In this document: positions 20,938-37,340 of the stretch, piece after piece | Layout: every line of letters begins with the position of its first letter | How positions within the stretch are numbered: position 1 is the first letter of the stretch | Source: Bacteroidales bacterium | GTDB taxonomy: Bacteria; Bacteroidota; Bacteroidia; Bacteroidales; UBA932 | Assembly: GCA_017634595.1 (NCBI GenBank) | Contig: JAGBNC010000027.1 | Location: forward strand, 1-47,157 | Direction: 5' to 3' | DNA length: 47,157 nt | Translations under genes and position numbers: made by a program | Notes under the pieces: model-generated | Databases searched by the model: none | The model's input: the letters and a program-made list of their open reading frames with translations, nothing else | Told to the model about the DNA's origin: nothing

Positions 20938-23211
20938 TTACTTGATTACAAAGTTGATTGTATGGTTGGAATCATTGGCCTTTCCGTAGATGTTATCAGC
21001 GGAGGCAGGAGTTCCATTGATGCTGCCAGAAACCTCGATGGGGCTGTCAGCAGAGCCAAGGACAACAGTCTTGGAAGTACCGTTGAAGTAACCAACAACC
21101 ATACCCATACGGTCTGCATCGTAGGTAGGAACGGTGATCTTGCAATTAACCTTGCATCCGGTAGCTGTATTATGGTCAACATTGCCCAAGTTACCGATAA
21201 GACCGCCGACACCACCTGTTAAATCGACCTTGGTAATCACCTCGCCACCAGCGATGCAGCCGGTGATTGCGTGTCCCTGTGAGTGGAATGCACAAAGGGA
21301 CCCAATGGCAGAACCGACATTCGCTGACTCGAGGGTGACAATACCCTGGTTCTCGCTATTCTCGATAACACCGGTACCACCTTCAATACCACCGATACGG
21401 CACTTCATGACGCCGCGTCCTGTGATCTTGCCCTTATTGACGCAACCATTAACGGAAGTACCGGTCACAGGCTTCTCTTGACCAGGCCAGCCGACGATAC
21501 CGCCGATAGCAGAGTTGGACTTATGAGCGTCACTGTCAACAGTAACGTTACCCTCATTCACGCAGTTGATGTAGCTGGTGTTGGAGAACACATCGGTAGA
21601 ATTGGTGAACTCATAGTCACCACCGCCGATACCGCCGACACAAACGATAAACTCGTAAGGAATCTCAGTGCCAGGATTGCTGTTCTTAAGAGAGACGTTC
21701 ACATCACCATAGTTGTGGCAGTCTGTCACAGCACCGCAAGGAGAGCCGACAATACCGCCCATCTGGTTACGGTTAAGGTTCGCAGACAGATCGGTTTCAG
21801 CAGCAGTAAGCTTATAATCAACGACACCATGGTTCTCGCACTTTGACATGGAGAAGCCGGGAGCGCCATAAGCTACAACACCTCCGATAGTAGGAAGTGC
21901 TCCTGTAGCCTCGACCACAACCACTTTGCCAGTAATGTTCTTGGCCTGGAAGGAAATATCACCCTTGTTGTTGCAATCGTTAACAGCAGCGGCCTGATAT
22001 CCAACGATACCGGCAACACCCACAGCAACGGTAGGACCATTAACCAATACAGACACTTTACCTTCGTTGATACAGCCGGAGATTTCTCCGCTGGACTGTC
22101 CGGCAATCGCTGCTACGAGAGCAGGATCTGCCACTGCATCAGCAACCATAGCTACCTTTGCTTTGTTGGTGACGCCGGAGATAGTTCCCTGGTTGTCACC
22201 AGCAATGATACCGAAGAACGGCACCTCGGGAGCGAACTCGCAGCTGGCGTCGATGACCACATTCTTAACAGTTCCGGACAAGGTGTTAAAGAGAGGCTTG
22301 CCGCTCTTGAGGCCCTTGATCGCGTGGCCCTTGCCGTCAAGCGTACCCTTGAAGCTTTCAACTGAAGGAACAGCAACGCCGGAGAGGTCGATATCGGCCT
22401 CGAGGGTGTACTGGCTGGAGGAACTTGCAAGCACGGCCTCTGTGGTAAGGAACTCCACGAAGTCGCTGACCTTGCTCATCTGAGGATTGAACTTGCTGGG
22501 CTCGAGAGTGGTGACAGATCCGGTAGTATAATCGGACTCTTCCTCACCCTTGACAGCCTTGACACGGATGTCATAGTTCGTCTTTGCTACAAGGCCCTCA
22601 ACATCATAAGAAGTATTCGCAGTCGGGACTTTCTCCCAGTCGCCTGAAGAAGCGGGCTTGTACTCGAACACATAGCTGTCAGCAAACGGCACAGCATCCC
22701 ATGATGCCTTGAAACCGGTCTCGGCGACATTGGATGTCTTGATGCTGGCGGGGGCGCCGAACTTAGCCTCCATGGTGCCTGTACCTACACAGACAGCAAG
22801 AGGGGCAGATTCAGAGCCGAGATATGTCCAGTTGGAGAAATAGTATCCAGGGTAGTTGGCTCTGATACGGGCATAGTAGAACGCACCGGCCTTGATATCC
22901 TTGGTCACGACGGCTGAAGTCTCAGGGACTGCAACTATTGTAATAGATGTGCCGTTGACAACATCTTTGACAGAGATATCACCGGTAAGCTCGATGGTGT
23001 AAGATGTAGCACCGGCAGCGACGGCCTGTGCGGCATCCCAGGTAAAACCGGCAGATTTAGCTCCGGAAGCAGCTGCATCATAGCTGAACGATGAGACTGC
23101 GGGCTTGCTGGAATCCAAGCCTCCGGGGATACTCTGATAGGGGTTCTCCTGCTGACAAGCGGCAAGTGCAAACAAGCAAGCCGCTACAGTCATTATCTTA
23201 TAATTCTTCAT
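20938..23211 (-). CDS. Surface lipoprotein with fibronectin-III-like domains and GLUG-like repeats (paralogue 1)
   Basis: A 757-aa lipoprotein; LAAC gives lipidated Cys19. Residues about 35-150 and 152-240 look like two FN3-like beta sandwiches (ASWDAVPFADSYVFEYKPAS; VEGLVAKTNYDIRVKAV). From about 250 onward there are some eight repeats of the form GGIVG-x(5-15)-C-x-N-x-G-x-(V/I), such as CNNKGDISF and CHNYGDVNV, resembling GLUG repeats of a right-handed beta-solenoid. There is no recognisable enzyme motif, so a binding role at the cell surface is the likely function. It is the second gene of a two-gene leftward operon, 10 bp after its paralogue, divergent from susC. Confidence 0.82.
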   Translation of the reverse strand: MKNYKIMTVAACLFALAACQQENPYQSIPGGLDSSKPAVSSFSYDAAASGAKSAGFTWDAAQAVAAGATSYTIELTGDISVKDVVNGTSITIVAVPETSAVVTKDIKAGAFYYARIRANYPGYYFSNWTYLGSESAPLAVCVGTGTMEAKFGAPASIKTSNVAETGFKASWDAVPFADSYVFEYKPASSGDWEKVPTANTSYDVEGLVAKTNYDIRVKAVKGEEESDYTTGSVTTLEPSKFNPQMSKVSDFVEFLTTEAVLASSSSQYTLEADIDLSGVAVPSVESFKGTLDGKGHAIKGLKSGKPLFNTLSGTVKNVVIDASCEFAPEVPFFGIIAGDNQGTISGVTNKAKVAMVADAVADPALVAAIAGQSSGEISGCINEGKVSVLVNGPTVAVGVAGIVGYQAAAVNDCNNKGDISFQAKNITGKVVVVEATGALPTIGGVVAYGAPGFSMSKCENHGVVDYKLTAAETDLSANLNRNQMGGIVGSPCGAVTDCHNYGDVNVSLKNSNPGTEIPYEFIVCVGGIGGGDYEFTNSTDVFSNTSYINCVNEGNVTVDSDAHKSNSAIGGIVGWPGQEKPVTGTSVNGCVNKGKITGRGVMKCRIGGIEGGTGVIENSENQGIVTLESANVGSAIGSLCAFHSQGHAITGCIAGGEVITKVDLTGGVGGLIGNLGNVDHNTATGCKVNCKITVPTYDADRMGMVVGYFNGTSKTVVLGSADSPIEVSGSINGTPASADNIYGKANDSNHTINFVIK

Positions 23212-23221
23212 ATCTCTTTAA

Positions 23222-25624
23222 TTAATTGTAATCACCGCCGCACATATCTGCAGTTGTCACAGCATTCGTTGCGGTATAGGTAATCTTACCTGTGTTGGAG
23301 CAATCAGTGAATGTGAGCTCAATACCACTCTTCTTGCAGCCGACTATACCACCAAGGCAGCTGGTATAAGACTTGGGCTGAGGAGTGCTGGACACCATAT
23401 CGATGTCGCCGCTGTTGACACACTTGGTGAAAGCAACGCTGCCTGCTGAGCTGGCATCAGCTACGATACCGCCCATGAAGTTACGCCAGTTGGGCTTGCC
23501 GTTGGTCTGGATACTATTCTGGACGAGTTTGAGGACACCCTTGTTGGTGCAGCCGCTTACAGCATATTTGCAACCACCGGCAATACCACCGAGACGGTTG
23601 ATTGCGGTAGGACAAGTCACGGTAACAGCATTGTTGTTGGCGCAGTCAACGATAGTACCGCTCACATAGCCGAACACACCGCCATAATAAGAGTTAGGAG
23701 TCTCGGTGATGGTGCCGAGGGTAAGGTTAAGGTCGACATTGTTGGTGCACTTTTCAAACACCACGCTGCCGTCGGACACATAGGGACCTGCAGAGGCGAT
23801 AACGCCAGCGAAGCAACCGGAAGCAATATTGCCAGCACCCCTGTTGCCTGCAGTACCACCGGCAAAGAGTGCAGTAGCACCTATCTTGCCATAGTTATGG
23901 CACTCAGAAGCACCCTGGGTCACTGTGCCGCCGACACCGGCGACGCGGGGACATGTCCAGGTGTTTGAATCAGAATCACAAAGAATACTGACTTCACCCT
24001 TGTTTGTACAGTTCTTCAAAGAACCTTCGACATAGCCGACTACACCACCGATATTAGGGTAAGCACCGGAGCCGCCACTGATATAATGCATGCTCACATT
24101 ACCTTCGTTTGAGCAGTTTTCAACCACGCCGTAGTTGCCAGGGGTCTCTTTAGCTGAAGGAGTACCTCCAACTACACCACCAACATAGAAGTAAACGGCA
24201 GTGCCATATTCCACACTGACATTGCCAGTGTTGGTGCAATTGGCAACCATAGATTTGCCGGCCTCACCGTCATACATACCTACGACTCCGCCGAAACAAT
24301 GATAGGTTCCGGAACCGGGCTCATCAACGCTGAGAGCCACCTTACCAGAATTTGAGCAGCCTTTAACTACACCGGAGGTATAACCTACAAGACCGCCCCA
24401 GTTGCAACTTTCCTTGGGGAGAGTAGCATATTTAACTTCTACGGGAGCTGCATTTGAACAGTTCTCAACCGAGCCAAGGTTCGTGCCGACAAGAACACCG
24501 TAATTAGTTGATGCAGCAGGTTCGGGGAAGGTTACAGAGCAATCTTTGTCGAAGACAACGCCTGAAATGGCGGCACTTTCAGAGGTAGCGCCAATAAGAC
24601 TGTTCTCTAACTTGACAGCAGAGAAAGTGACATCTTTGAAGCTGCCGCTCACGGCTCCGAAGAGGTTGCCGGGAATGGTTGCATTTTTGATGACGTGCTT
24701 CTTTCCGTCGAATTTACCGGCGAATGCTTCAATCGCGGGAAGCTCGGCTCCGCCGAGATCGATATCCTTCTCAAGGGTGTAAGAATCAGTAGCACTTGCA
24801 GTTGCAGCAATGCTGCTGACGAACATCATGAACTGATCTTTATCCTCAATATTAGGCTGGAAAGCAGGCTTCTCAGGAGTAGTAATGCTGGCTGTAGTAT
24901 AATCGGTGTATTCCTTATTACCGTCAGCAACGCGATATGCACGAACACGCACATCATAGGAAGTCTTCTCGGAGAGCTCTGTAATCTCAGCCTGTGCTCC
25001 AGTAGTCTCGGCGAGTTTGGTCCAGTTACTGTCGGAGCTCTTCTTCCACTCGGGAGCGTATCCGTCAGCCTTGCCGACCATCGACCAAGAAGCAGTTATC
25101 TTGCTATAAGCAGGAGCGGAGAGTTTAAGCTCTTTGGGAGCACTGAAAGACATGGCAAGGAGACCGTGGCCGACACTGATGCAAGCCAGATCGTCGCCGT
25201 CTTTGAGCACAGTCCAATCTGAATAAACGGAACGGGGATAGTTAGCCCTGATGCGAGCATAATAACGGTCATACTCTTTAAGTCCAGAGAATATGGTTCC
25301 GTCGGTAACAGCTGCATCGGCTTGAATGGTCTGGCCCTGCGGAGTATCTTTGTACATACTCACCTCAGGTTTGTACATCGTAGCATCGGAGAAATCTTCT
25401 TGCTTTGCAAGCTGCACGGAGAAAGAAGTCGCTCCAGCCTTCAAGGCCTGCTCCGGATTCCAAACCAGCGAGACGGATGTCGTAGAGGACATGGTCTCAT
25501 CATAAGCGAAGTCCGTTACGCCAGCTTTCGACTTGTCAATGCCGGTGATGACTTCTTTCTGGGCACAGCCAGCAAGAAGGGCGGCAGACATTGCAGCGGC
25601 GATCAGGATTTTGAATGATTTCAT
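23222..25624 (-). CDS. Surface lipoprotein with fibronectin-III-like domains and GLUG-like repeats (paralogue 2)
   Basis: An 800-aa lipoprotein; LLAGC gives lipidated Cys20. It shares the architecture of the 20938-23211 product: a first FN3-like domain with YYARIRANYP, a second with KTSYDVRVRAYRVADGN, an IDLGG...AFAGKFDGKKHVIKN segment, then many GGVVG...C.N.GNVS repeats to the C-terminus (GGIVGCKKSGIELTFTDC). The common block (A)RIRANYP and the identical order of parts show tandem duplication. A near-consensus promoter lies upstream. It may be a surface binder working with the divergent SusC/SusD pair, which is inferred only from position. Confidence 0.82.
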   Translation of the reverse strand: MKSFKILIAAAMSAALLAGCAQKEVITGIDKSKAGVTDFAYDETMSSTTSVSLVWNPEQALKAGATSFSVQLAKQEDFSDATMYKPEVSMYKDTPQGQTIQADAAVTDGTIFSGLKEYDRYYARIRANYPRSVYSDWTVLKDGDDLACISVGHGLLAMSFSAPKELKLSAPAYSKITASWSMVGKADGYAPEWKKSSDSNWTKLAETTGAQAEITELSEKTSYDVRVRAYRVADGNKEYTDYTTASITTPEKPAFQPNIEDKDQFMMFVSSIAATASATDSYTLEKDIDLGGAELPAIEAFAGKFDGKKHVIKNATIPGNLFGAVSGSFKDVTFSAVKLENSLIGATSESAAISGVVFDKDCSVTFPEPAASTNYGVLVGTNLGSVENCSNAAPVEVKYATLPKESCNWGGLVGYTSGVVKGCSNSGKVALSVDEPGSGTYHCFGGVVGMYDGEAGKSMVANCTNTGNVSVEYGTAVYFYVGGVVGGTPSAKETPGNYGVVENCSNEGNVSMHYISGGSGAYPNIGGVVGYVEGSLKNCTNKGEVSILCDSDSNTWTCPRVAGVGGTVTQGASECHNYGKIGATALFAGGTAGNRGAGNIASGCFAGVIASAGPYVSDGSVVFEKCTNNVDLNLTLGTITETPNSYYGGVFGYVSGTIVDCANNNAVTVTCPTAINRLGGIAGGCKYAVSGCTNKGVLKLVQNSIQTNGKPNWRNFMGGIVADASSAGSVAFTKCVNSGDIDMVSSTPQPKSYTSCLGGIVGCKKSGIELTFTDCSNTGKITYTATNAVTTADMCGGDYN

Positions 25625-25741
25625 ACTGAATTGTTTGTGTTATAGTTAAAACAATGATAAGTTAACGCCTCTCATTGGGGCGCCTTTGACAAACAATCCT
25701 TTTTCAGCCGGCCTTCCGGCCGTTCGTCTGACTTGCAGTTA

Positions 25742-25771
25742 CAAAGATAACCATTTTTAGTTATTTCTCAA
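25742..25771 (-). promoter_or_regulatory. Promoter of the repeat-lipoprotein operon, in a 356-bp divergent intergenic region
   Basis: Leftward, (A)TTG at 25771-25769, an exact 19-nt spacer and TATCTTTG at 25749-25742 match the Bacteroidota promoter, giving a leader of about 110 nt before ATG 25624. The rest of 25625-25980 is A/T-rich. A possible rightward -7 box for susC (TATTTTTG, 25823-25830) has only TTTT at the -33 position. No regulator gene or obvious operator palindrome is present. Confidence 0.6.
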
Positions 25772-25980
25772 TAAAACGTAAGGTTTTTTTACAATACTAT
25801 TTTAATTTATAAAATTTTGATTTATTTTTGCCTTGTTGTTCACAAAACTGACCGTTTTTTATTAAAGATTTTTAAAAAAGGAAACTAACCAAATTTTATC
25901 ACTCCTTTGAAAACCATCTGATTTTCAGCAGCATATCGTCCTGGCTTGCAAGATTCTAATTTAATAACTAAGGACCATTT

Positions 25981-28900
25981 ATGATGAAAATCACGATTCC
26001 CAGAAGATTTGCGCTGGCTCTTATCGCCCTCTTTGCAGGACTGAGCGCCTTCGCACAGACTTCTACGATTACCGGTGTGGTACGCGATTCGGCAGGTGAA
26101 CCCATTGTTGGTGCCGCCGTTATGGTAAAAGGCACTACAACCGGTGTTATGACAAATGCCGATGGCTCCTATTCAATCAGGGCCAACAGCGATGCTGTAC
26201 TCGTGTGCCAACTTTTCGGCTACAAGAACGCTGAAGAGCTTGTGAACGGTCGCAGCAAAATTGATTTCACCCTCGCCGACGATACCGAGATGCTCGAAGC
26301 AACCGTCGTCGTGGGTTACGGTACCTTGAAAAAGACCCAGCTCGTAGGTTCTGTCGAGAACCTCGACGGTTCGAAGGTCGCCGACCGTCCTAACGCCAAC
26401 CTCGCCCGTTCACTTCAGGGCCAGGTAGCAGGTTTGAACATTATCCAGACCGACGGTAAGGCGAACCACTCAGGTAACGTTTACATCCGTACCAACTCGC
26501 ACAAGTACACTACACGTGCATCAATGACCAGCGGCTCCGGCGGATCCTATTCACTGGGTTCCGGCGACGGTAGCGCTCTGGTGCTCATTGACGGTGTGGA
26601 AGGCAGCCTCGGCAACGTCAACCCTTCCGACATCGAGACCGTGGCCGTGCTCAAGGATGCTTCCTCTGCAGCCATCTACGGTGCCCGTGCGTATAACGGT
26701 GTGATCTTGGTTACGACCAAGGAGGCAAAAGGCGATAAATTCTCCATTTCCTACAACGGTTCCTATTCTTACAATGACCGTACAGTCAAGTGGGAAGACA
26801 ATATCGTCACCGACGGTCTCACCTGGTTGGAAGCATTCTACGACTTCTTCCAGGGCGACTCAGTGACCCCTACCGCCGCAGGTAAAATGCCTTCACAGAT
26901 CAACACTTGGAAATTCAACGACGGCTATCTGGACACCTTCCGTCAGAGGCGTATCGCAGGCAACTACGAAGTCTTCGACGATTCATCAGGCGTGTACCAG
27001 TACTACGGTTCCACCAACTGGCTGCCCCTCTTCTACAAGAGAGCTACAGACAATACCACCCACGACATCAGCGTGAGAGGATCTTCAAAGAAGATTAGCT
27101 ACTCACTTACTGGACGTTTCTTCACCCAGTCCGGTCTGTACAAGATCGGTGACGATGACTACAACCAGTTCAATATCCGTTCGAAAGTACGTCTCAAGGT
27201 AACGGACTGGCTCAGCATCACCAACAACACTTCCCTCTTCCGCACCAACCAGAAGCAGTCTATGTTCACCACTGGTTCAGTGCTTGGAAAGCAGATCGAC
27301 CAGCACGGACAGCCTATCGGTATTCCTGTCAACCCTAACGGGACCTACTCCCTGTTTGCTGCCAAGACCGGTTTCGCATCCTTCCTCGAAGGCAACACCG
27401 GCCAGACCGATGCCAACACCACTGTGGTAACCACCACCGGTGCAACAGTCACTTTCCTTAAGGACGTTCTCAAATTCGATGCAGACTTCTCATATAAGGC
27501 TGTCCGCCGCTGGAGAGAGCGTTACCGCGCACCTCTTGATTTCTACCTGTCCGACTCATCTGTTACCCACTATGTACCTCAGGCAAGTTCATACAAGAGC
27601 CGCTGGACATATGACACCGATTATATCACAGCCAATGCTTACTTCACCTTCACTCCCAAGCTTGGTGAGAATCATGAGCTGAACCTGGTTGCCGGTGCCA
27701 ACTTTGAAAACTACGACTACGACCGCTTCTATCTGCAGCGCAGGGGCATGATCTTCCCTGACAAGTACGAGAGCTACGAGATGTATGACGCTCTTGAGAC
27801 AATTCTCATTGAGCAGAACCGCAACTCCTATGGTAACATCGGTTTCTTCGGCCGTGCCAACTATACTCTCCTCAAGCGCTACATCCTTGAGCTTGCAGCC
27901 CGTTACGACGGTGCATCCCGTTTCCCTTCAAGCAGCCGCTGGGGTTTCTTCCCTTCCATGTCGCTTGGTTGGAGAGTGAGCGAGGAGCCTTGGATGAAGT
28001 GGAGCCGCAGCTGGCTTGACAACTTCAAGATCCGTGCAAACTGGGGAACCCTCGGCAATGGTACTTCCGGAGTCTATGACTTCCTCGAGCTCATCAGAAT
28101 CGACAAGACCGGCGTCCTCTTCGACGGCGCCAAGAACAACTATACCGGAGCTCCTAACGTAGTTCCCGAGAGCCTTACCTGGGAGCGTTGTACCACTTAT
28201 GACGTAGGTCTGGACGCCGACTTCCTCGGCAACAGGCTGTCTTTCTCCGGCGACTGGTTCCTTAGGGACACCAAGGACGTTATCACCAGTGGTCCTCAGC
28301 TTCCTGCAGTCTTCGGCGCAAGCGCTCCTAAGGGCAACTTCTCACGCTTCGAGGACCGTGGCTGGGAGCTCACCCTTGCATGGAAAGACCAGTTCAAGCT
28401 TGCTGGAAAGGACTTCCGCTATTCAGTTCAGGGACGTATGTGGGACACCAAGACCACCGTCAAGGAGTTCACGACCATCGTAGAGAATCCTCTGGGACTC
28501 TATGCCGGCAAGGAACTCGGTGAGATCTGGGGTTTCCGTACCGACGGTATTTTCCGCAACAACATTGAGGCTCAGAACTGGGCTACCGATACATTCCATA
28601 AGAATGGTTCCAACTTCGCAGAGTATGCAGGTGACCTCAGGTTCATCGATATCGACGGTGACGGCGACATCAACTACGGCCTCGGTACCATGCAGGATCA
28701 TGGCGACCTTGAGGTTATCGGTAATGAAACTCCCCGTTACATGTACGGCTTCAACTTCGACTTCAGCTGGAACGGAATCGGCCTCAGCCTGTTCTTCCAG
28801 GGCGTCGGCAAGCGTGATTGGTATCCTGATACCGAGACCGCATTCTTCTGGGGTTCATACAACCGTCCTTACTGTCCTTATCTGAACGTTAACCAGATCG

Positions 28901-29343
28901 GCGACAATTATGCACAGATTGACTTCTCAACTCCTAACTGGGAGGTCGTCAACTTCGACAAGAATCCTTACTGGACCCGCCGTGTAGCTTACGCTTCCAA
29001 CCGTAACGTAGGCCCTCTTTCCTGGAACAACGATCACTATCTGCAGAACGCAGCTTACCTGCGTCTGAAGAACGTAACCCTCGACTACACCCTGCCGCAG
29101 AACCTTACCAAGAAGGTCAAGATCGACAAGGTCCGTTTCTATGTAACAATGGAGAACCTCTTCACCTGGTCTCCTATGTTCAAGCACACCAACATGTTCG
29201 ATCCTGAGGCTATCGGTCTCGGCGACACCGACTTCGATAGTGGTTCAGTGAGCGCCGGCAATGCTGGTCTTAGCGGCGTTGGTGAAGGTTACAGCTACCC
29301 TATGTTCAAGACCTTCACATTTGGTGTTAATATTACCCTTTAA
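25981..29343 (+). CDS. SusC/RagA-type TonB-dependent outer-membrane transporter
   Basis: This 1120-aa porin imports oligomeric ligands across the outer membrane, powered by TonB, with the adjacent SusD as lid. Signal peptide 1-26 (cleaved after AFA), then a carboxypeptidase-regulatory-like domain about 28-100 (TITGVVRDSAGEPIVGAAV), the SusC signature VVVGYGTLKKTQLVGSV (109-125), the plug domain (VLIDGVEGSLGNVNPSDIET, AAIYGARAYNGVILVTTK) and a 22-strand barrel ending MFKTFTFGVNITL. There is no N-terminal extension for a sigma/anti-sigma system. The ligand is not predictable from sequence; downstream phosphoesterases suggest a phosphorylated ligand. Confidence 0.97.
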   Translation: MMKITIPRRFALALIALFAGLSAFAQTSTITGVVRDSAGEPIVGAAVMVKGTTTGVMTNADGSYSIRANSDAVLVCQLFGYKNAEELVNGRSKIDFTLADDTEMLEATVVVGYGTLKKTQLVGSVENLDGSKVADRPNANLARSLQGQVAGLNIIQTDGKANHSGNVYIRTNSHKYTTRASMTSGSGGSYSLGSGDGSALVLIDGVEGSLGNVNPSDIETVAVLKDASSAAIYGARAYNGVILVTTKEAKGDKFSISYNGSYSYNDRTVKWEDNIVTDGLTWLEAFYDFFQGDSVTPTAAGKMPSQINTWKFNDGYLDTFRQRRIAGNYEVFDDSSGVYQYYGSTNWLPLFYKRATDNTTHDISVRGSSKKISYSLTGRFFTQSGLYKIGDDDYNQFNIRSKVRLKVTDWLSITNNTSLFRTNQKQSMFTTGSVLGKQIDQHGQPIGIPVNPNGTYSLFAAKTGFASFLEGNTGQTDANTTVVTTTGATVTFLKDVLKFDADFSYKAVRRWRERYRAPLDFYLSDSSVTHYVPQASSYKSRWTYDTDYITANAYFTFTPKLGENHELNLVAGANFENYDYDRFYLQRRGMIFPDKYESYEMYDALETILIEQNRNSYGNIGFFGRANYTLLKRYILELAARYDGASRFPSSSRWGFFPSMSLGWRVSEEPWMKWSRSWLDNFKIRANWGTLGNGTSGVYDFLELIRIDKTGVLFDGAKNNYTGAPNVVPESLTWERCTTYDVGLDADFLGNRLSFSGDWFLRDTKDVITSGPQLPAVFGASAPKGNFSRFEDRGWELTLAWKDQFKLAGKDFRYSVQGRMWDTKTTVKEFTTIVENPLGLYAGKELGEIWGFRTDGIFRNNIEAQNWATDTFHKNGSNFAEYAGDLRFIDIDGDGDINYGLGTMQDHGDLEVIGNETPRYMYGFNFDFSWNGIGLSLFFQGVGKRDWYPDTETAFFWGSYNRPYCPYLNVNQIGDNYAQIDFSTPNWEVVNFDKNPYWTRRVAYASNRNVGPLSWNNDHYLQNAAYLRLKNVTLDYTLPQNLTKKVKIDKVRFYVTMENLFTWSPMFKHTNMFDPEAIGLGDTDFDSGSVSAGNAGLSGVGEGYSYPMFKTFTFGVNITL

Positions 29344-29355
29344 TCAGCGGAGTAT

Positions 29356-31182
29356 ATGAAAAGTATATATAGAATTCTCCTCGTTGCATTTGCTGTCCTT
29401 TCATTAACTGCTTGCGAGAAGTTCTTCACAAGAGAGCCTATCAACTCGTTCTCTGCAGAGACATATTTCGCTAACGAGAATCAGATCAAGATGTACACCG
29501 ACGGCATGATCAACTCCTGGATGCCTTCCATGGACGACATCGGTTACGGCGGTTACAGTGTTTACAACGATCTCATCGCCACCCGTACTTCCACTACATT
29601 CTACCAGCCGGGCCTGTTCAACCCTACCCGTCAGGGCAGCTGGAGCTGGACCTTCGCAAGGCGCTGCAACATCATGATTCAGCGTATGGAAAAGAATGCA
29701 AAGGGAAATGTAGATGATGAGACTTACAACCATTACATGGGAATTGCCCGTTTCTGGAGGGCATATCATCACTTCTCCAGGATCAAGACTTTCTCCAACA
29801 TCCCTTACATCGACGTTGTTGTCGACTCCAAGGACTCCACCATCCTCTTCGGATCAAGGCTTGACAGGGAAGAGGCATTCCACCACTGCGTTGAAGATTT
29901 CGACTTTGCACAGCAGAATTGCCTCGGCACCGCCAAGTACAATACTCCAGGACGTGTGTACATCAACAAGTGGGTTATCCTTACCTACCTTTCAAGAATC
30001 TATCTGTATGAAGGCACTTTCCGTAAGTACCACAGCGTGAATCCCGCTACCAACACACCTTGGACAAACAAGTACGAGACCGCAGACGAGTTGATCCGCA
30101 AAGCAGCACAGTGCGCAGAAGAAGTTATCAAATCTGGAGAGTTCTCACTGCACAAAGACTATGCAGAGCTCTTCTTGAGCGAGAATCTGTGCAATGACGA
30201 GGTCATCTGGGGCAGAACGTACAGCGAAGCTCTTGGTTCACTCCACAACCTTACCAGATACTTCAACTCTTCCACTCTTGGTCAGCAGTACTCAGGAACT
30301 AAGGAACTGGTCCGCCAGTACCTTAAGACCGACGGTACTCCCGTCCTGACCGGTGAGCAGACTATCAACGAGGAGTTCAAAGACAGGGATGCCCGTCTGA
30401 GCGCAACAGTTCTTGGCCCCGGCCACAAAATTGCAAAACTTACCGGCGATACCTCTCCTCAGGTAATCAACATGACTTGGAACTGCACTGGTTACCAGCT
30501 CGTAAAATGGTGTGTCCCCGATGAGACCCATCAGCAGAATGCTGTTGATGCCAATTCCCTCCCTATCCTCCGTTATGCTGAGGTTCTCCTCAACTACGCT
30601 GAAGCCAAGACTCTCCTTGGCGAGATGAACAAGGGTATTTGGGACCAGACCATCGGCGCACTCCGCACCCGTGCCGGCGTAAAGAACATCTATCCCGGCG
30701 ATGCTGGTTACGTGAAAGATCAGTGGCTGCACGACTACTACACAGCCAGCGACCTTGCACATGTCAGCGAAGTAAGCGACATCGAGCTTGAGATCCGCCG
30801 TGAGCGCGTGACTGAGATGACTCTCGAGCAGGGCCTGCGTACCGACGACCTGTACAGGTGGTCTATTGCCGACCTTATCGAGAAGCGTCACAACCACGAG
30901 GGCTGGGCCGGTATCTGGGTCACCGAGGCAGAAGCCAAGAACGGCTTCACTTTCGAAGGCACCAAGTATGAGTTTACCAACTCCGGTTCAGTTGGAGAGA
31001 CCAAGATTCCTATCACCACCAATTCAGACCGTAACTGGACTCTGGAGAAGGCTGGTGCTGGTTACTACTTGATCTACAACTTCAAACTCGAGTGGCTGGA
31101 GCGCAACTATGTGCGTCCTATTCCTCAGGATGATCTGAACCTCAACAAGAATCTCGGCCAGAACTACGGCTGGGACAGCTAG
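29356..31182 (+). CDS. SusD/RagB-type surface nutrient-binding lipoprotein
   Basis: The partner of the SusC protein, 12 bp upstream. 608 aa with LTAC lipobox (Cys20) and an N-terminal CEKFFTREPINSFSAETYFA typical of SusD. It contains the TPR-like helical core (IMIQRMEKNAKGNVDDETYNHYMGIARFWRAYHHF is the usual RAYYYF-type region), ILRYAEVLLNYAEAK and ERVTEMTLEQGLRTDDLYRW, and ends with NKNLGQNYGW. It caps SusC and captures ligand. A strong terminator follows, so the pair forms a bicistronic unit separate from the phosphoesterases. Confidence 0.97.
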   Translation: MKSIYRILLVAFAVLSLTACEKFFTREPINSFSAETYFANENQIKMYTDGMINSWMPSMDDIGYGGYSVYNDLIATRTSTTFYQPGLFNPTRQGSWSWTFARRCNIMIQRMEKNAKGNVDDETYNHYMGIARFWRAYHHFSRIKTFSNIPYIDVVVDSKDSTILFGSRLDREEAFHHCVEDFDFAQQNCLGTAKYNTPGRVYINKWVILTYLSRIYLYEGTFRKYHSVNPATNTPWTNKYETADELIRKAAQCAEEVIKSGEFSLHKDYAELFLSENLCNDEVIWGRTYSEALGSLHNLTRYFNSSTLGQQYSGTKELVRQYLKTDGTPVLTGEQTINEEFKDRDARLSATVLGPGHKIAKLTGDTSPQVINMTWNCTGYQLVKWCVPDETHQQNAVDANSLPILRYAEVLLNYAEAKTLLGEMNKGIWDQTIGALRTRAGVKNIYPGDAGYVKDQWLHDYYTASDLAHVSEVSDIELEIRRERVTEMTLEQGLRTDDLYRWSIADLIEKRHNHEGWAGIWVTEAEAKNGFTFEGTKYEFTNSGSVGETKIPITTNSDRNWTLEKAGAGYYLIYNFKLEWLERNYVRPIPQDDLNLNKNLGQNYGWDS

Positions 31183-31202
31183 AGTATTTATTTATCTTAA
31201 AG

Positions 31203-31245
31203 AGAGTGACTATAGGTCGAGAGACTGATAGTCACTCTTTTTTTT
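31203..31245 (+). terminator. Intrinsic terminator after susD
   Basis: AGAGTGACTAT and ATAGTCACTCT pair perfectly (11 bp) around a 14-nt loop, followed by eight Ts. It ends the susC-susD unit. Confidence 0.92.
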
Positions 31246-31273
31246 GTTTGAGATTAAAAAAACACTAAATTTG
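31243..31273 (+). promoter_or_regulatory. Promoter of the tandem phosphoesterase genes
   Basis: TTTG (31243-31246), a 19-nt spacer and TAAATTTG (31266-31273) form a consensus Bacteroidota promoter. Its -33 element overlaps the T-run of the susD terminator. The start site would fall about 25 nt before ATG 31304, so the phosphoesterases can be expressed without susCD. Confidence 0.72.
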
Positions 31274-31303
31274 TAAGATAGACAATATTAATCTCATCAT
31301 ACA

Positions 31304-33067
31304 ATGAAAAACATCAGATTGTTTTCACTGCTCATCTTGAGCTCAGTTATGGCGTTTGCCATTTCTTGCAATACTGCCGAGCCGGACGATCCGAACAAAG
31401 GCAAGACTAATCCGGACGAGGAACTTCCCGTCGATGCCATTAACGGCACTACCATAGCAGAAGGGATGAATGCTTGCGGTCTCGTGTCTGATGCCGCAAC
31501 AGGAAAAGGTATCCCCGGAATTCCTGTAACAGATGGATTTAGCTATGTAGTGACCGATGCTAACGGAGTGTATCAGATGGCGGCAAACCGTTACACCCGT
31601 AATATCTATCTGAGTGTCCCGCCCGAATATAAGATTCCTCTTGACCCAGACACTCATTTGCCACTCTTCTACTCCACCAAGACGTTCAAAAAGAATAATG
31701 TCAACCGCAATGACTTCAAGCTGGAGCCGCAGGCCGTCGAGACAAACTTCACCATGATTATGATCGGCGACCCTCAGTGCCAGACATCAGCCCAGGTGGA
31801 AAGATACCGCAACGAGACCGTACCGGCTATGCTTTCCACGATCAACAACGGTCAGGCTAAGGGACTCTATCCCAATGTTTACGGCATGACCCTGGGAGAC
31901 ATCACGTTTGACAGCACCAATCTGTGGGGCGACATGAAGAGCACTATGACCAACCTCAAGACTAGTGCCGGCAAGTGGTTCCCTATCTTCCAATGCATTG
32001 GCAACCATGACCATAACTCTTTGGTCAAGAGCAATGACTATGACGCTACCGGCAAATACGTAGAGTATTTCGGACCCACCGACTATTCTTTCAACCGCGG
32101 CCAGGTACACATCGTAGTTATGGATGATATTATGTGCAACACGGTATCATCTAATTCATCTCCTAATAAAGCCACATGGGGTTACTCGGCAGGCTTTACC
32201 CAGACTCAGTACAAGTGGTTCCTCGAGGATCTGGCTCAGGTTGAGAACAAGTCCGACAAAGTCATTTTCCTCTGCATGCACATCCCCATGAGGGCCGGGG
32301 CCAATTCCGGCGGAGCTTCGTTCAACAAAAACGCCCACTACGCCGATGTACTCAATCAGCTCAAGCAGTTCAAAGAGGCTCACCTCATGATAGGCCACAC
32401 ACACTATCAGCAGAACTACATACACACAGGATATGTTTGTAAAGGCGGTAAGCCCATCTATGAGCATGTACATGGTGCTGCTTGCGGCGGATGGTGGAGC
32501 TGCAACTCCAATGTCACCGGCGCCCCCAACGGCTTCAACGTATATGAAATCGAGGGGAATACAGTAAAGAACTGGACTGCTATCGGATCCAAGAACGGTG
32601 CAGACTACCAGATGCGTGTATATGACGGCAACCAACTGTACAGCGGCAGCAGAGGCTATGAGTATGCATGGTATCGCTCATCCAACAAGGGCGGGAATGC
32701 GTCAATAACAGCAGTCGGTAATGCCAACCTGCAGAACGCATTCGTCGTGGAGGTATTCAACGATGACGACCAGAACTGGAAACTCGAACTATACCAAAAT
32801 GACACAAAGGTGGGCGACTTCAAACGTCTGGCCAATGGCAGCTGCTGCAATATCTGCATCACTTCATACTTCTTCAACGAACTTGGCAAGAACACAGACA
32901 CATGGGTCAACAAGACGGCCAGCCACTATTGGTACTTCGTCCCCGCCTCAAAGAAGCCGGCCGAAGAGAAGAACTGGGAAGTGCGTGCAACCCAGACAAT
33001 CCCGAGCAGCGGAGTAAATAATGTATATACTTGTTCAACTCTAACCACAGACTACGGCCAATTCTAA
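31304..33067 (+). CDS. Lipoprotein calcineurin-like phosphoesterase with MetallophosN/C-type flanking domains (copy 1)
   Basis: A 587-aa surface or periplasmic lipoprotein (AISC lipobox, Cys22). Residues about 52-145 are a beta-sandwich N-domain (GLVSDAATGKGIPGIPVTDG; TDANGVYQM). The metallophosphatase core about 150-400 carries the two-metal motifs MIGDPQCQ (the usual first motif DxH is replaced by DPQ), LGDITFDSTNLW, IGNHDHN, MHIPMR and IGHTHYQ. A C-terminal beta domain follows about 430-580. The family hydrolyses phosphomono- or diesters; the substrate is unknown. It lies 5 bp upstream of a longer paralogue and behind its own promoter, next to susCD. Confidence 0.93.
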   Translation: MKNIRLFSLLILSSVMAFAISCNTAEPDDPNKGKTNPDEELPVDAINGTTIAEGMNACGLVSDAATGKGIPGIPVTDGFSYVVTDANGVYQMAANRYTRNIYLSVPPEYKIPLDPDTHLPLFYSTKTFKKNNVNRNDFKLEPQAVETNFTMIMIGDPQCQTSAQVERYRNETVPAMLSTINNGQAKGLYPNVYGMTLGDITFDSTNLWGDMKSTMTNLKTSAGKWFPIFQCIGNHDHNSLVKSNDYDATGKYVEYFGPTDYSFNRGQVHIVVMDDIMCNTVSSNSSPNKATWGYSAGFTQTQYKWFLEDLAQVENKSDKVIFLCMHIPMRAGANSGGASFNKNAHYADVLNQLKQFKEAHLMIGHTHYQQNYIHTGYVCKGGKPIYEHVHGAACGGWWSCNSNVTGAPNGFNVYEIEGNTVKNWTAIGSKNGADYQMRVYDGNQLYSGSRGYEYAWYRSSNKGGNASITAVGNANLQNAFVVEVFNDDDQNWKLELYQNDTKVGDFKRLANGSCCNICITSYFFNELGKNTDTWVNKTASHYWYFVPASKKPAEEKNWEVRATQTIPSSGVNNVYTCSTLTTDYGQF

Positions 33068-33072
33068 TCAAC

Positions 33073-35217
33073 ATGAATTATAAAAAAATTATTATTGTCG
33101 CCATTGCACTTCTGGCTCTGGTATCGTGCAAGAATAAAGAAGATGCCTACGCCCCTGCTTCGATAAACGGGACATGGGTATTCTCTGCAGAGAGTAATGG
33201 TTCCAAATGGACGGATTTGAAAGTTTCCACCATCTACATATTCGACGGTAAGGGTGGATATGTAACCAAGAGTCTTGCCTCTGGTGCACGTGCAGCCACT
33301 TTCTACAACGGGCAAGTTTATGCCGACGAGAGTTCATTCACAACCACCGACAGCAAATCCTACACGGCTAAAACTTCAGGTAAGCAGTATGTGTTCGAAT
33401 CTCTGCCTGGCACCTATACTTTGGTTTCATCTTCTTCCGACCTCATGACCTTCGATTATAGCGGCTCTGCGTCGGCTGTCGGCTACAGGCTTTCGAAAGT
33501 ATCGAAATTCCAGGCATCGGTTGAGCCGGAACCCGAACCAGAACCAGAACCGGAGCCCGAACCGCAACCGGAGCCCAAACCTTCAATCAACGGAACTGAA
33601 CTTCTCGAAGGCAATGATATTGTAGGTTTGATTCACGACAAAGATAGCGGTAAGGGAATCCCCGGAGTCATCGTAACCGACGGATACAACTGCACCAAGA
33701 CGGACGCCAACGGAGTATATCAATTCAAGTCAAATGAACTTACCCGCTTTGTGTATTATACCACTCCCGCTGAATACAAGATAGCGACCCCGTCTTCACC
33801 CAGCGTACCAGTCTTTTACAAAGCAATAAGCCCCAACGGAGATCTTGTCCGCACCGATTTCACCCTTGAGCCTTTGGCCGGCGGGAAGGAAAACAACTGG
33901 ACGTTTATCGGTATCGGCGACCCTCAGTGCGCTACAAGCAGCAACGCCAGCCGCTATGTAGCGGAGACCATTCCGGATATCAAGAAGACTCTGTCAGGAC
34001 AGAAAAGCGTGTATGCCATGACTCTCGGTGACATCGTATTCGACAGCACCAACATGTGGCCCACGATGAAAGCTTCTATGAGTTCCGTCCACAATGGATC
34101 TGACTACATAGTATTCTTCCAGACCATTGGCAATCACGACCACGACTCTCTGCAGCCTGATACGTCAGACAATGCAATGGACGACTACAATGCCACCTCT
34201 ACATACGGCAAATTCTATGGCCCTACCGACTACTCTTTCGACCGCGGTGACGTGCATATCGTTGCCATGGACGATATTATGGTCACAAGCCAGAAGTCTT
34301 CGTCAAAGAGCAATGGAAAGACCTGGAGCTACAGCGGCGGCTTTACCCAGAAGCAACTTGACTGGCTCAAGCAGGACCTCGCACTTGTGGACAACAAGGA
34401 AAACAAGATGATTTTCATCTGCTGCCATATTCCTTTCCGCGGCTCATCGGCCAACCACTACCCTGACGTGCTTAAGCTGATGGATCAGTTCAAGGAGGCC
34501 CACCTGATGATAGGCCATACACATTACACTCAAAACTATATCTACACCACGTCACACATTGGGAAGGGCGGGCTGCCACTCTATGAGCACATCCATGGTT
34601 CCGCATGCGGCGCGTGGTGGACAAAGAACTGCAGTTCAACTGTTACCGGCGAGCCTTCTGGGTACACTGTTTATGACATTGAAGGAGCTCATATCAAAGA
34701 TTGGTACTTCAAGGGCACCAACAAGGACAAGGAAGACCAGGTGCGTGTATTTGACGGTAATGAAATATATTACGAGAAGGAAGCTTATCCACTGAACTGG
34801 TACACACCTTCGCAAAAAGTCGGCACCTACACCTTTGCTGTAAAAGGCAATGCAAACCTCAAAGGCTGCTTCGTAGCCCAGGTGTACAATGACGATGAAG
34901 CAAACTGGTCCGTCGCCCTCTACAAGAAGAGCACCGGGACAAAGATCGGAGAGTTTAAGCGCCTGGCCAATGGTACTTGCTCCAATGCAGCCATGTCGGC
35001 GCACTATTATAACAGGAAGAGCAAGACTTCCGACAGCTATCGTTCATGGACAGCCAGCCATTACTGGTACTTTAAGCCAGAGTCCGCCACTCCGGCACTG
35101 GAGTCAGACTGGGAAGTCGTTGTGACCCACACTCTCCCCGGCGGCCAGGTAAAGCACACTTACAAATGCTCTAAGCTTACCGTGACTAACGAACTGGAGA
35201 AGTCATTCTATTTCTAG
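33073..35217 (+). CDS. Lipoprotein calcineurin-like phosphoesterase with added lipocalin-like domain and EP-rich linker (copy 2)
   Basis: A 714-aa product from ATG 33073 (MNYKKIIIVAIALLALVSC, lipidated Cys19); an upstream in-frame start at 33031 would overlap the previous gene and spoil the signal peptide. Residues about 31-146 resemble a lipocalin-like beta-barrel (INGTWVFSAESNGSKWTDL). A Pro/Glu linker (151-170) leads to the same three-part phosphoesterase as in the preceding gene: N-domain, metallophosphatase core with GDPQC (282-286), LGDIVFDSTNMW, IGNHDHD, CHIPFR and IGHTHYTQ, then the C-domain. Tandem duplication with domain gain is the simplest reading. Confidence 0.93.
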   Translation: MNYKKIIIVAIALLALVSCKNKEDAYAPASINGTWVFSAESNGSKWTDLKVSTIYIFDGKGGYVTKSLASGARAATFYNGQVYADESSFTTTDSKSYTAKTSGKQYVFESLPGTYTLVSSSSDLMTFDYSGSASAVGYRLSKVSKFQASVEPEPEPEPEPEPEPQPEPKPSINGTELLEGNDIVGLIHDKDSGKGIPGVIVTDGYNCTKTDANGVYQFKSNELTRFVYYTTPAEYKIATPSSPSVPVFYKAISPNGDLVRTDFTLEPLAGGKENNWTFIGIGDPQCATSSNASRYVAETIPDIKKTLSGQKSVYAMTLGDIVFDSTNMWPTMKASMSSVHNGSDYIVFFQTIGNHDHDSLQPDTSDNAMDDYNATSTYGKFYGPTDYSFDRGDVHIVAMDDIMVTSQKSSSKSNGKTWSYSGGFTQKQLDWLKQDLALVDNKENKMIFICCHIPFRGSSANHYPDVLKLMDQFKEAHLMIGHTHYTQNYIYTTSHIGKGGLPLYEHIHGSACGAWWTKNCSSTVTGEPSGYTVYDIEGAHIKDWYFKGTNKDKEDQVRVFDGNEIYYEKEAYPLNWYTPSQKVGTYTFAVKGNANLKGCFVAQVYNDDEANWSVALYKKSTGTKIGEFKRLANGTCSNAAMSAHYYNRKSKTSDSYRSWTASHYWYFKPESATPALESDWEVVVTHTLPGGQVKHTYKCSKLTVTNELEKSFYF
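33523..33582 (+). repeat. Glu-Pro repeat linker, 6-bp coding microsatellite
   Basis: Imperfect hexamer repeats (GAACCA/GAGCCC/GAACCG) encode about nine EP dipeptides with one QP and one KP. This gives a stiff, negatively charged spacer that would hold the phosphoesterase away from the lipid anchor and lipocalin-like domain. Confidence 0.9.
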
Positions 35218-35234
35218 AAGGCATACTTTAACGA

Positions 35235-35275
35235 AAGGGTCCGCAAGCTGTTGTAAAACTTGCGGACCCTTTTTT
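35235..35275 (+). terminator. Intrinsic terminator after the phosphoesterase pair
   Basis: AAGGGTCCGCAAG pairs exactly with CTTGCGGACCCTT around an 11-nt loop, followed by a run of six Ts (35270-35275). The preceding As also make it usable for the convergent lipoprotein gene at 35291. Confidence 0.95.
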
Positions 35276-35290
35276 AGTATATTTTATTCT

Positions 35291-36079
35291 TTAGTAACGA
35301 ATTATTCTATGCAATACTGAATAGGCTGTGCTGTCGGGGTGAACTTTCTCATAGCGAGTAACCCAATTGCCTTTATCATCGTACTCATAGCTGTAAAAAC
35401 GCTCAGGATACTGTTCCAGATCGGAAGACCACATCATTTCACCTACCGAATTGAGCAAGGTCCCACGGCTTCTGACCGGCAGAGCCTTCTCGTTGTAGTC
35501 TATCTCAACATCAAACTCGCCGCCCTTGATTCTCGTAAGTTTCTCATCAGTAAGGAAAGACACGTCGGCTGTTCCCAGAAGGTCGCCTTCCGGCGAATAC
35601 GATTTTTCAACATATGAATTCCCGGAATACTCCTTCTTGGATATAAAAGAGAGCTCACCTTCTGAGTAATACTCAGTATTGACTATATGACGTCCGTCAT
35701 TCTTATGGACCCAGCGGCTCATTTCCTGGTTGTTCATGCCATAAACACGGCATTCACTGATGAAACGACCTTTGTAGTCATATTCATAGCGGGCTTCATT
35801 TTCATTTTCAGAATTAACACCTAAAATATCGGTAAGCTGGTGCCTATCATTATAGGTATAGCTTTCTTCGTAGCGGAAACTGCCGTCGAAATTGTCGGTG
35901 CGTACAGTCTCCGCCTGTCCGTATTTATTAAAGGTAACGGTATATGGCAGCTCAAGAGTATCTGATTGAAGCGTAACTTCTTGCGCGTTACAGTTTAAAG
36001 AGTACTTTTCCAAGTCAGTTTTGACCGGGCTGCAGGCGCAGATAACAAGCGCCGAGACAAGTATAAGTTTGCTTTTCAT
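35291..36079 (-). CDS. Lipoprotein with YD/RHS-like tyrosine-rich repeats
   Basis: A 262-aa lipoprotein with a short signal peptide and ICAC lipobox (Cys16). The body contains recurring beta-hairpin motifs with Tyr and Gly-Lys turns: ESYTYNDRHQLTDI, RYEYDYKGRFISECR, KKEYSGNSYVEKSYSPEGDL and SYEYDDKGNWVTRYEKV. These resemble YD repeats of RHS-type proteins, but the short length shows it is not a toxin shell. Function unknown. It is divergent from the PHP phosphodiesterase gene with only 53 bp between starts. Confidence 0.72.
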   Translation of the reverse strand: MKSKLILVSALVICACSPVKTDLEKYSLNCNAQEVTLQSDTLELPYTVTFNKYGQAETVRTDNFDGSFRYEESYTYNDRHQLTDILGVNSENENEARYEYDYKGRFISECRVYGMNNQEMSRWVHKNDGRHIVNTEYYSEGELSFISKKEYSGNSYVEKSYSPEGDLLGTADVSFLTDEKLTRIKGGEFDVEIDYNEKALPVRSRGTLLNSVGEMMWSSDLEQYPERFYSYEYDDKGNWVTRYEKVHPDSTAYSVLHRIIRY

Positions 36080-36084
36080 GATGC

Positions 36085-36111
36085 AAAGTTATCAAAATAA
36101 TAGTAACTTTG
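36085..36111. promoter_or_regulatory. Divergent -7 boxes between the YD lipoprotein and PHP phosphodiesterase genes
   Basis: TAACTTTG occurs on the minus strand at 36092-36085 (5 bp before ATG 36079) and on the plus strand at 36104-36111 (21 bp before ATG 36133). Neither has a clear -33 element. The paired identical boxes suggest shared or competing regulation of the two genes. Confidence 0.45.
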
Positions 36112-36132
36112 TAAGAACCAATTCAAGACGTT

Positions 36133-37266
36133 ATGAAAAAATCACTATTATTGATGATCGGCCTGAGCGCCTTCTGTTCCATTTTTGCTCAGAATCCTCC
36201 AGAGAACTCCGACGACCGCGTTGCGTGTTACAGGATGATGTCCTGTGTACGCAAAGTCATAGCGATTCCGGATATCGACGAGTACAAAACTCTCAAATGC
36301 GACTTCCATACGCATACAGTATATGCAGACGCACAGGTTTCGCCTGAAGGGCGCGTACAAGAAGACTGGTTCGACGGCCTCGATGTGATGGCAATGACCG
36401 AACATGTGGGTGTCCACAAGACCGGCATTGATTTTCCCGACCGTAATGTCACCAACCAGAAAGCCATGGCAGAGGGCAAGAAATGGGGCATGATAGTCAT
36501 CCCCGGCGTTGAAATCACCCGCGCCAAGCCCTTCGGTCACATGAACTTCCTCTTTGTCAAAGACGCCAACGTATTCAGCGAGGACCGCTATCTCATAGGC
36601 GAGGACGGGCATAGCTTGAAAGACGAACAGGGGCGCAGCATCAATAATATGGAGACCCTCAAGGACGACATTGCCGCGGCTGTTGAGCAGGAGTGCTTCA
36701 TTCAGTGGAACCATCCCGGCTGGCCTGACAAGAAGTGCGATATGTACGACATTCACAAGGAAATGCTTGCAAAAGGGCAGATCAATGCTGTGGAAATATG
36801 CAACCACCAGGAATGGTACCCCAAGGTGCTTGACTGGTTTGACGAGTATCATATTCCTATGACTGCCAACACCGACCAGCACAGGCCCGCTGTTGTGGAC
36901 TACGGTCATGTCATACGCCCTATGACTCTGGTATTTGCCAAGGAATACACTCTGGAATCAGTGCGCGAGGCTATGTTTGCAGGGCGCATGGTGGCCTTCT
37001 GGGACAATACCCTGGCCGGTGACGCTACCTGGCTGGAGCAGCTTGTACATCATTCGCTCAAGGTCAAGGTAATTGATGCCAAGAAAGGCAGGATAGAGGT
37101 TACGAATGTGTCGGATATCCGCTTCGAGACCATGTATGGAGATCACATGAATCCCGTGGTTCTGTACCCTCGCAGCGCTATCATCATGACGGTCAAGAAA
37201 GACCAGAAGATAGAGTTCCTTAACTGCTATACAGGCCGCAATACCCTGAAAACCAATCTCTGGTAA
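36133..37266 (+). CDS. Secreted PHP-domain phosphodiesterase (Sb-PDE-like)
   Basis: A 377-aa protein with signal peptide (MKKSLLLMIGLSAFCSIFAQ) and a PHP metal-dependent phosphoesterase domain: FHTHTVYAD, MAMTEHVG, IPGVEITRAKPFGHMNFLF, FIQWNHPGW and TANTDQHRP are the conserved metal-ligand blocks. The Sb-PDE family named for a Sphingobium phosphodiesterase has this arrangement, and Bacteroidales homologues are usually annotated that way. It should act in the periplasm on a phosphodiester. It is the third phosphoesterase within 6 kb downstream of susCD. Monoesterase activity is not excluded. Confidence 0.88.
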   Translation: MKKSLLLMIGLSAFCSIFAQNPPENSDDRVACYRMMSCVRKVIAIPDIDEYKTLKCDFHTHTVYADAQVSPEGRVQEDWFDGLDVMAMTEHVGVHKTGIDFPDRNVTNQKAMAEGKKWGMIVIPGVEITRAKPFGHMNFLFVKDANVFSEDRYLIGEDGHSLKDEQGRSINNMETLKDDIAAAVEQECFIQWNHPGWPDKKCDMYDIHKEMLAKGQINAVEICNHQEWYPKVLDWFDEYHIPMTANTDQHRPAVVDYGHVIRPMTLVFAKEYTLESVREAMFAGRMVAFWDNTLAGDATWLEQLVHHSLKVKVIDAKKGRIEVTNVSDIRFETMYGDHMNPVVLYPRSAIIMTVKKDQKIEFLNCYTGRNTLKTNLW

Positions 37267-37286
37267 TATGAGCCGGAGGCTGATAA

Positions 37287-37320
37287 AAAAAACTGGCCCT
37301 CTGAATGAGGGTCAGTTTTT
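37287..37320. terminator. Bidirectional terminator between the PHP gene and pnp
   Basis: AAAACTGGCCCTC pairs with GAGGGTCAGTTTT (one G-U) around TGAAT, with a T-run on the plus strand and a run of As on the left that becomes a T-run for leftward pnp transcription. Confidence 0.9.
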
Positions 37321-37340
37321 ATATTAATACGGCTGATAAG

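Follow-up and report, generated by a model that had tools for sequence, protein, structure and literature searches.

Phosphoesterases accompany a SusC/SusD lineage of Bacteroidales: a putative uptake locus for phosphoester ligands

SusC/SusD pairs are routinely interpreted as sugar importers. What would such a pair take up when the enzymes beside it are phosphoesterases? This question is raised by a 47,157-nucleotide stretch of DNA from a Bacteroidales bacterium of the UBA932 lineage (contig JAGBNC010000027.1, assembly GCA_017634595.1), hereafter the window. It carries a SusC-type TonB-dependent transporter (25981-29343, + strand; TIGR04056, 726 bits) and a SusD-type lipoprotein (29356-31182, +; PF07980, 122 bits), adjacent and on the same strand as in a SusC/SusD uptake locus. 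Behind them lie two calcineurin-like phosphoesterase lipoproteins, MPE1 (31304-33067, +) and MPE2 (33073-35217, +), each of which matched both MetallophosN and MetallophosC over cut-off. We propose, with a probability of about two in three, that this locus is an outer-membrane system for the capture, cutting and uptake of a phosphoester-bearing ligand, with a glycerophosphoryl or alditol-phosphate compound favoured.

We searched 400 genomes of the same genus with the window SusD alone, of which 117 matched at 1e-65, and scored up to three candidates per genome. Selection by SusD homology alone gave 81 loci, the window and 80 others; among the matches listed, all those down to G224:C3 were taken except G267:C100 (a contig-end fragment) and G220:C10, followed by selected later ones. 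BLASTP against a reference set, the families of which had mostly been verified with Pfam or NCBIfam, supplied the labels of the neighbours, and up to four same-strand genes 3' of SusD were counted as its run. This run held a MetallophosN/C gene (hereafter MPE) at 53 loci, an Exo_endo_phos (EEP) gene at 20, both at one (L111; L numbers are our locus numbers) and neither at seven, so that 74 of the 81 loci carry one or the other. The earlier note on this DNA had tied its reading to whether SusC/SusD homologues never occur beside phosphoesterases; the neighbourhoods went the opposite way. The usual plan among the relatives was a GLUG/FN3 lipoprotein divergent from SusC-SusD-MPE.

On the SusD tree (a quick tree, midpoint-rooted) the EEP rows formed one clade of 21, including L111 (SH-aLRT 99), which was sister to the 25-row clade of the window and nested among MPE clades. 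This nesting suggests one swap of the calcineurin-fold enzyme with retention of the importer; as far as the sequences go, a single replacement by an unrelated enzyme of the same reaction kind, with the importer unchanged, would be the simplest reading. We hypothesize that this SusC/SusD lineage is keyed to phosphoesters and that the fold of the adjacent enzyme is exchangeable. Loci of the EEP group bear BACON-type lipoproteins. Divergent from their SusC there is often a gene with DUF6377, from a cluster with 15 members, and this gene is a candidate regulator. Loci L092-L120, in the sister SusD clade, contain BACON and Exo_endo_phos lipoproteins and a DUF6259-Exo_endo_phos fusion.

Matches in named genomes, judged by their record titles, came largely from uncultured rumen and hindgut Bacteroidales and from Alistipes metagenome-assembled genomes (MAGs). 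Among the matches listed, the closest was MAG SRR12081295_bin.59 (L202, 93% SusD identity), with the order SusC-SusD-MPE-MPE-LP262-PHP and then an EEP gene, LP262 and PHP being further genes of the window locus described below. Eighty named loci, many of which duplicate the genus set, comprised 42 with MPE, 20 with EEP and 18 with neither. Among these 18, a homologue of the window PHP gene (46-47% identical) lay directly 3' of SusD in three Alistipes MAGs (L268, L269, L271), an arrangement that links this gene with the system. A GDPD gene came first in L275, stood upstream in L272 and, as judged by eye, in L273, and was assigned by analogy in L278. Directly 3' of SusD there was a PF04185 phosphoesterase in L277 (groundwater Bacteroidetes) and L279 (Chitinophagaceae MAG), and a histidine phosphatase in L250, with a GH123 gene behind it; L255 has a gene of the same cluster. 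Upstream genes were EEP in L276, purple-acid-type by label in L270, and MetallophosN/C in L243 and, by label, in L259; no phosphoesterase was found within reach in L205, L257 and L262.

A phylum-wide search led to SusD proteins 28-34% identical to that of the window (BLASTP). We fetched 20 of the 42 matches outside the own genome, leaving aside G540:3880755, G824:C42, G700:C11 and all those after G820, and genes in these distant genomes were called by longest open reading frame (ORF). In 15 of the 20 loci the first same-strand gene 3' of SusD was a phosphoesterase: EEP in seven, MetallophosN/C in three, a PF00149/purple-acid type in two, and GDPD, PF04185 and PF01663 in one each; the PF04185 locus L282 is identical with L277. 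As a control we hand-picked ten arbitrary SusD genes, one from each of ten genomes, with 2.5 kb each. Their first 3' gene was a phosphoesterase in none of the ten cases, and a phosphoesterase stood within two genes in one (L302, EEP second). In these controls the first gene of L305 matched no family, that of L304 was a SusC by BLAST, and L306 had no same-strand gene next. The phosphoesterases beside SusD homologues, in 74 of 81 loci and in 15 of 20 distant ones against 0 of 10 controls, support a phosphoester as the class of ligand, as the earlier note had inferred.

That a genome with many MetallophosN/C genes placed them here by chance would be a very improbable explanation. The 2.59-Mb genome of the window does hold 11 MetallophosC genes, but only 0.114 phosphoesterases are expected per SusD within 4 kb, and the MetallophosN/C loci (54 of 81 with L111 included) cluster on the SusD tree. 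Within that distance a phosphoesterase domain was found at 2 of the 22 SusD genes of this genome, the window's among them.

Pfam and NCBIfam profile scans of nine genes, from 20938 to 39704, confirmed with small corrections the gene content reported before for 20938-37266. They yielded no match in the locus genes, at E values up to 0.1, to families of glycoside hydrolases, polysaccharide lyases, sulfatases, hybrid two-component systems (HTCS), extracytoplasmic function (ECF) sigma factors or anti-sigma factors, the absence of which had already been claimed. The nine genes matched neither a carbohydrate-active enzyme (CAZyme) family nor a sulfatase family, at least one of which belongs to a polysaccharide utilisation locus (PUL). 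SusC and SusD are separated by 12 bp, SusD and MPE1 by 121 bp, and MPE1 and MPE2 by 5 bp if MPE2 begins at its likelier start, the ATG at 33073; the start given in the ORF list, at 33031, is a TTG codon within MPE1. The remaining genes are GLUG1, a lipoprotein with FN3 repeats (20938-23211, -; PF00041), GLUG2, with FN3 and GLUG repeats (23222-25624, -; PF00041, PF07581), LP262, a 262-residue lipoprotein with no family matched in the scan (35291-36079, -), and a protein of PHP type (36133-37266, +), the signal peptide of which is an ordinary one. Lipoprotein and signal-peptide assignments were made by eye. Because the repeat lipoproteins and LP262 lie on the opposite strand, a single operon is possible only for SusC-SusD-MPE1-MPE2, and the PHP gene would form a separate transcription unit.

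How well do the enzymes fit such a role? Calcineurin-like enzymes carry the metal motifs D-x-H/Q, GD, GNHD, H and GHxH. All of them are present in MPE1, with Gln in place of His in motif 1 (DxQ), and D156, Q158, D199, N234, H235, D236, H326, H365 and H367 were invariant in 52 sequences. The PF00149 metallophosphatase core profile had no match in the window, where MetallophosN/C matched instead. The structure model of MPE1 has a predicted calcineurin-like core fold and resembles GpdQ, a glycerophosphodiesterase, although Rv0805 and Lmo2642 are equally close; SMPDL3A and 5'-nucleotidases are further structural neighbours. With MPE1 alone as query, a sequence search of the PDB gave no match up to E 0.1, and a profile search gave weak matches to purple acid phosphatases. 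GpdQ, Rv0805, purple acid phosphatases and SMPDL3A are 13-18% identical to MPE1, which, unlike them, has flanking MetallophosN and MetallophosC domains and the DxQ first motif. MPE2 contains a Pro-Glu linker and an additional N-terminal segment.

The last gene had been described as a secreted PHP phosphodiesterase. The signal peptide, a phmmer match to the solved PHP-like structure 3e38 (E 7e-43) and the metal ligands speak for it: PHP proteins share a pattern of metal-binding residues, and the corresponding H59, H61, D66, H91, E127, H136, H194, D248 and H250 were invariant in nine sequences. The profile scores did not reach their curated cut-offs, with 16.0 versus 26.4 for Pfam PHP (PF02811) and 57.2 versus 80 for NCBIfam CehA/McbA (NF038032).

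Clues to the ligand came from genes no more than 8 kb away from SusD at the 80 same-genus loci. GlpT/PgtP-like organophosphate transporters occurred at eight loci, GLUG-GDSL esterases at seven, GDPD at four, mannitol-1-phosphate dehydrogenase at four (with a mannitol phosphotransferase system too in L110 and L131) and glycerol-1-phosphate-dehydrogenase-like genes at three; the dehydrogenase of L078 scored 146 bits, where the NCBIfam profile of glycerol-1-phosphate dehydrogenase has its cut-off at 413. In the own genome, L146 (C16:152428-157531) is a tight operon of an epimerase of the ribulose-phosphate-3-epimerase family, Fe-ADH_2, a GlpT/PgtP-like organophosphate transporter and, last, an enzyme of the MetallophosN/C type. 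Four relatives (L162-L165) retain this operon, and at L147 another MPE lies near GDPD and organophosphate transporter genes. The lipoteichoic acid of Bacillus subtilis is described as poly-sn-glycerol-1-phosphate and its wall teichoic acid as poly-sn-glycerol-3-phosphate (PMC7086022). Teichoic acid is an attractive ligand because these polymers are glycerol-phosphate; phospholipid headgroups fit equally. Metallo-beta-lactamase-like genes were seen at five of the 80 loci, under the Pfam cut-off; two other SusC/SusD loci of the own genome (L155, L157) have two or three such genes each, from cluster c9, whose representative is likewise under it.

A more specific proposal would be a Bacteroidota-wide importer of poly(alditol phosphate), for example the (lipo)teichoic acid of Gram-positive neighbours, and teichoic acids would then serve as food. 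Phosphodiesterases from six or more families, each able to stand in for another, would free glycerol-, ribitol- or mannitol-phosphate units, which would enter through SusC/SusD and a GlpT-like antiporter and be catabolised by Fe-ADH_2 glycerol-1-phosphate-type and mannitol-1-phosphate dehydrogenases. We regard this extended version as unlikely.

Several observations weigh against the main proposal. Seven of the 81 loci lacked MPE and EEP in the run: L065 has a MetallophosN/C pair about 10-13 kb away on the same contig, L115 and L119 have a histidine-phosphatase cluster gene, L138 a divergent gene labelled purple-acid-type and L139 a GLUG-GDSL gene, and L122 and L127 end with their contigs, with no phosphoesterase found. 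The loci include near-duplicates, so the counts are not independent. In the phylum-wide set, L285, L286, L295 and L296 had no phosphoesterase as first 3' gene, and L287 stops at a contig end. Within 8 kb, a phosphoesterase domain was found at 9 of the 22 own-genome SusD genes (expected 0.228 per locus), which, set against 2 of 22 within 4 kb, leaves close adjacency as the unusual part. The PHP gene lies near SusD in only 4 of the 80 same-genus loci and its product scores below curated cut-offs. Organophosphate transporter, GDPD and glycerol-1-phosphate-dehydrogenase-like genes stand near only the few loci given above, and none is in the window; the neighbours of the dehydrogenase-like gene vary outside the five-genome operon, and we rejected it as a general companion. 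Lastly, some relatives carry glycosidases beside SusD, and one divergent SusD branch carries ribokinase and nucleoside-hydrolase genes.

The glycosidases are GH123 in L250, GH78 in L130 and L132, GH28 in L093, L095 and L112, and a GH109-like enzyme in L270; part of the neighbours of the 80 loci was scanned against Pfam, and further glycosidases may have been missed. With them in view, sugars may form part of the ligand. Glycans are the usual cargo of SusC/SusD pairs, and the ligand could be a glycan with phosphate or phosphodiester substituents, its decorations stripped by the phosphoesterases and its backbone cut by glycosidases encoded elsewhere. The window locus, however, has no glycosidase match and its recurring companion is a phosphoesterase, which makes a decorated glycan an improbable ligand.

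The main rival to a glycerophosphoryl or alditol-phosphate ligand is a nucleic acid, nucleotide, NAD or ADP-ribose, trimmed by the phosphoesterases, with ribose or the nucleoside as the nutrient. The ribokinase and nucleoside-hydrolase branch points this way, and nucleotide-type ligands may be among those accepted across the wider family. The C12 locus of the own genome (L143/L144, C12:178000-203258) is a SusC/SusD locus that carries two MetallophosN/C genes, GLUG-type genes, a metallo-beta-lactamase-like gene, ribokinase, a permease (PF07168 in L143) and a nucleoside hydrolase (PF01156 in L143). Ribokinase also stands beside SusC/SusD/MPE in L134, L141 and L142, with a nucleoside hydrolase of the same cluster in L134 and, in L141 and L142, one labelled as such by BLAST. 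Nucleases are found in the EEP and S1/P1 families, an S1/P1-cluster gene precedes EEP and SusC in L111, and SMPDL3A and 5'-nucleotidases resemble MPE1. Yet ribokinase lies near only 3 of the 80 SusD loci and a nucleoside-hydrolase label near 2, all in the divergent branch (33-35% identity) and none among the closest relatives of the window; GDPD and the glycerol-1-phosphate-dehydrogenase-like gene do not fit a nucleotide ligand. Overall, a nucleotide ligand seems rather unlikely for the window locus.

Is phosphate itself the nutrient? In Flavobacterium johnsoniae, the text on its Pus loci describes PusCD1 with two phosphodiesterases (PUSI) and PusCD2 with PhoA1 (PUSII), both complexes appearing only when phosphate was depleted; PUSI is regarded as a scavenger of phosphodiesters such as lipid headgroups and nucleic acids, and import of organic phosphorus is proposed (PMC8115612). 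The same text describes PusD as polyphyletic. Like PUSI and PUSII, the window locus co-localises a SusCD-like pair with phosphoesterases instead of CAZymes, and by gene content we liken it to a Pus locus and suggest that it works like one. The Pus loci come from plant-associated Flavobacterium, with induction by phosphate starvation reported there, whereas the window locus belongs to Bacteroidales whose relatives come mostly from rumen and hindgut, and has a PHP protein beside MetallophosN/C and FN3/GLUG lipoproteins. On the Flavobacterium precedent, the locus could serve to scavenge phosphate under Pho control instead of supplying carbon. The gut is not usually phosphate-poor, and some relatives have carbon-catabolic neighbours (mannitol-1-phosphate dehydrogenase, epimerase, Fe-ADH_2); on balance this role is doubtful.

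A canonical PUL and the window locus both cluster SusC and SusD with lipoprotein enzymes and with accessory lipoproteins of the cell surface, but the latter gave no match to any CAZyme, sulfatase, HTCS or sigma/anti-sigma family. The C12 locus resembles the ribose/nucleoside locus of Bacteroides thetaiotaomicron in ribokinase, nucleoside hydrolase and permease beside SusC/SusD, and differs from it in its MPE and GLUG genes; the window locus has no ribose genes. Among the titles listed, literature searches showed no published MetallophosN/C-SusCD system, no teichoic-acid SusC/Bacteroidetes locus or calcineurin-like-phosphoesterase PUL of this kind, and no paper devoted to the ribose/nucleoside locus; for MetallophosC they gave two papers, both on plant purple acid phosphatases, and for glycerophosphodiesters with SusD they led back to the Flavobacterium study (PMC8115612).

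GLUG1, a putative surface ligand binder, has homologues divergent from SusC in many relatives. At 44 of the 80 loci SusD has a homologue of GLUG1 or GLUG2 no more than 8 kb away; for LP262 the figure is 19. The AlphaFold2 model of GLUG2 (mean pLDDT 86) has an N-terminal FN3-like part followed by a long region of beta-strand repeats. A single own-genome protein (L149:8855-12646, C36) fuses a GLUG-containing part to MetallophosN/C. The divergent intergenic region (25625-25980) holds two conserved leaders. The one ahead of SusC, aligned from 13 loci, is strongly conserved; the other lies on the GLUG side (11 loci), and the two share words of the type TCAG...TCGTC-TG-CTTGC. An Rfam search of 25300-26300 gave nothing at gathering score, the best of five weak matches reaching 22 bits versus 100. 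Covariation in a possible RNA structure was slight: both sides had changed in 0 of 9 pairs in the 13 SusC-leader sequences and in 1 of 24 in the 11 GLUG-leader sequences. A full Bacteroides-type promoter motif was not found, the only trace being a -7-like TATTTTTG 158 bases before SusC.

Directly beyond the PHP gene lies PNPase (37341-39704), which also adjoins the SusC/SusD locus of the distant Bacteroidota genome L296, probably by coincidence. An S1/P1 nuclease accompanies PNPase in L071, L075, L076 and L123, and cluster members without PNPase occur in L110, L111, L112 and L139. We mostly reject this nuclease as a locus member; as had been suspected, it belongs for the most part to the flanking PNPase block.

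Our model suggests that the FN3/GLUG lipoproteins would hold the ligand at the cell surface, where MPE1 and MPE2, with their predicted fold and conserved metal ligands, would cut its phosphodiester bonds. TonB-driven SusC/SusD, in the manner established for the family, would import the fragments, and the PHP enzyme may complete phosphate-ester cleavage in the periplasm. The favoured ligand would be a teichoic-acid-like polymer or a phospholipid headgroup, for example, used for carbon as well as phosphate.

The concept of a phosphoester importer is already known from Flavobacterium Pus; a SusCD lineage keyed to phosphoesters would be a new variation on it. The ligand is directly testable with purified SusD and MPE1. 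The finding extends the Pus idea to animal-gut Bacteroidales, since the published survey left anaerobic gut isolates outside its scrutiny (PMC8115612). A constant importer whose companion changes fold and keeps the same reaction type provides a sequence rule for spotting phosphoester importers among pairs otherwise read as importers of sugars.

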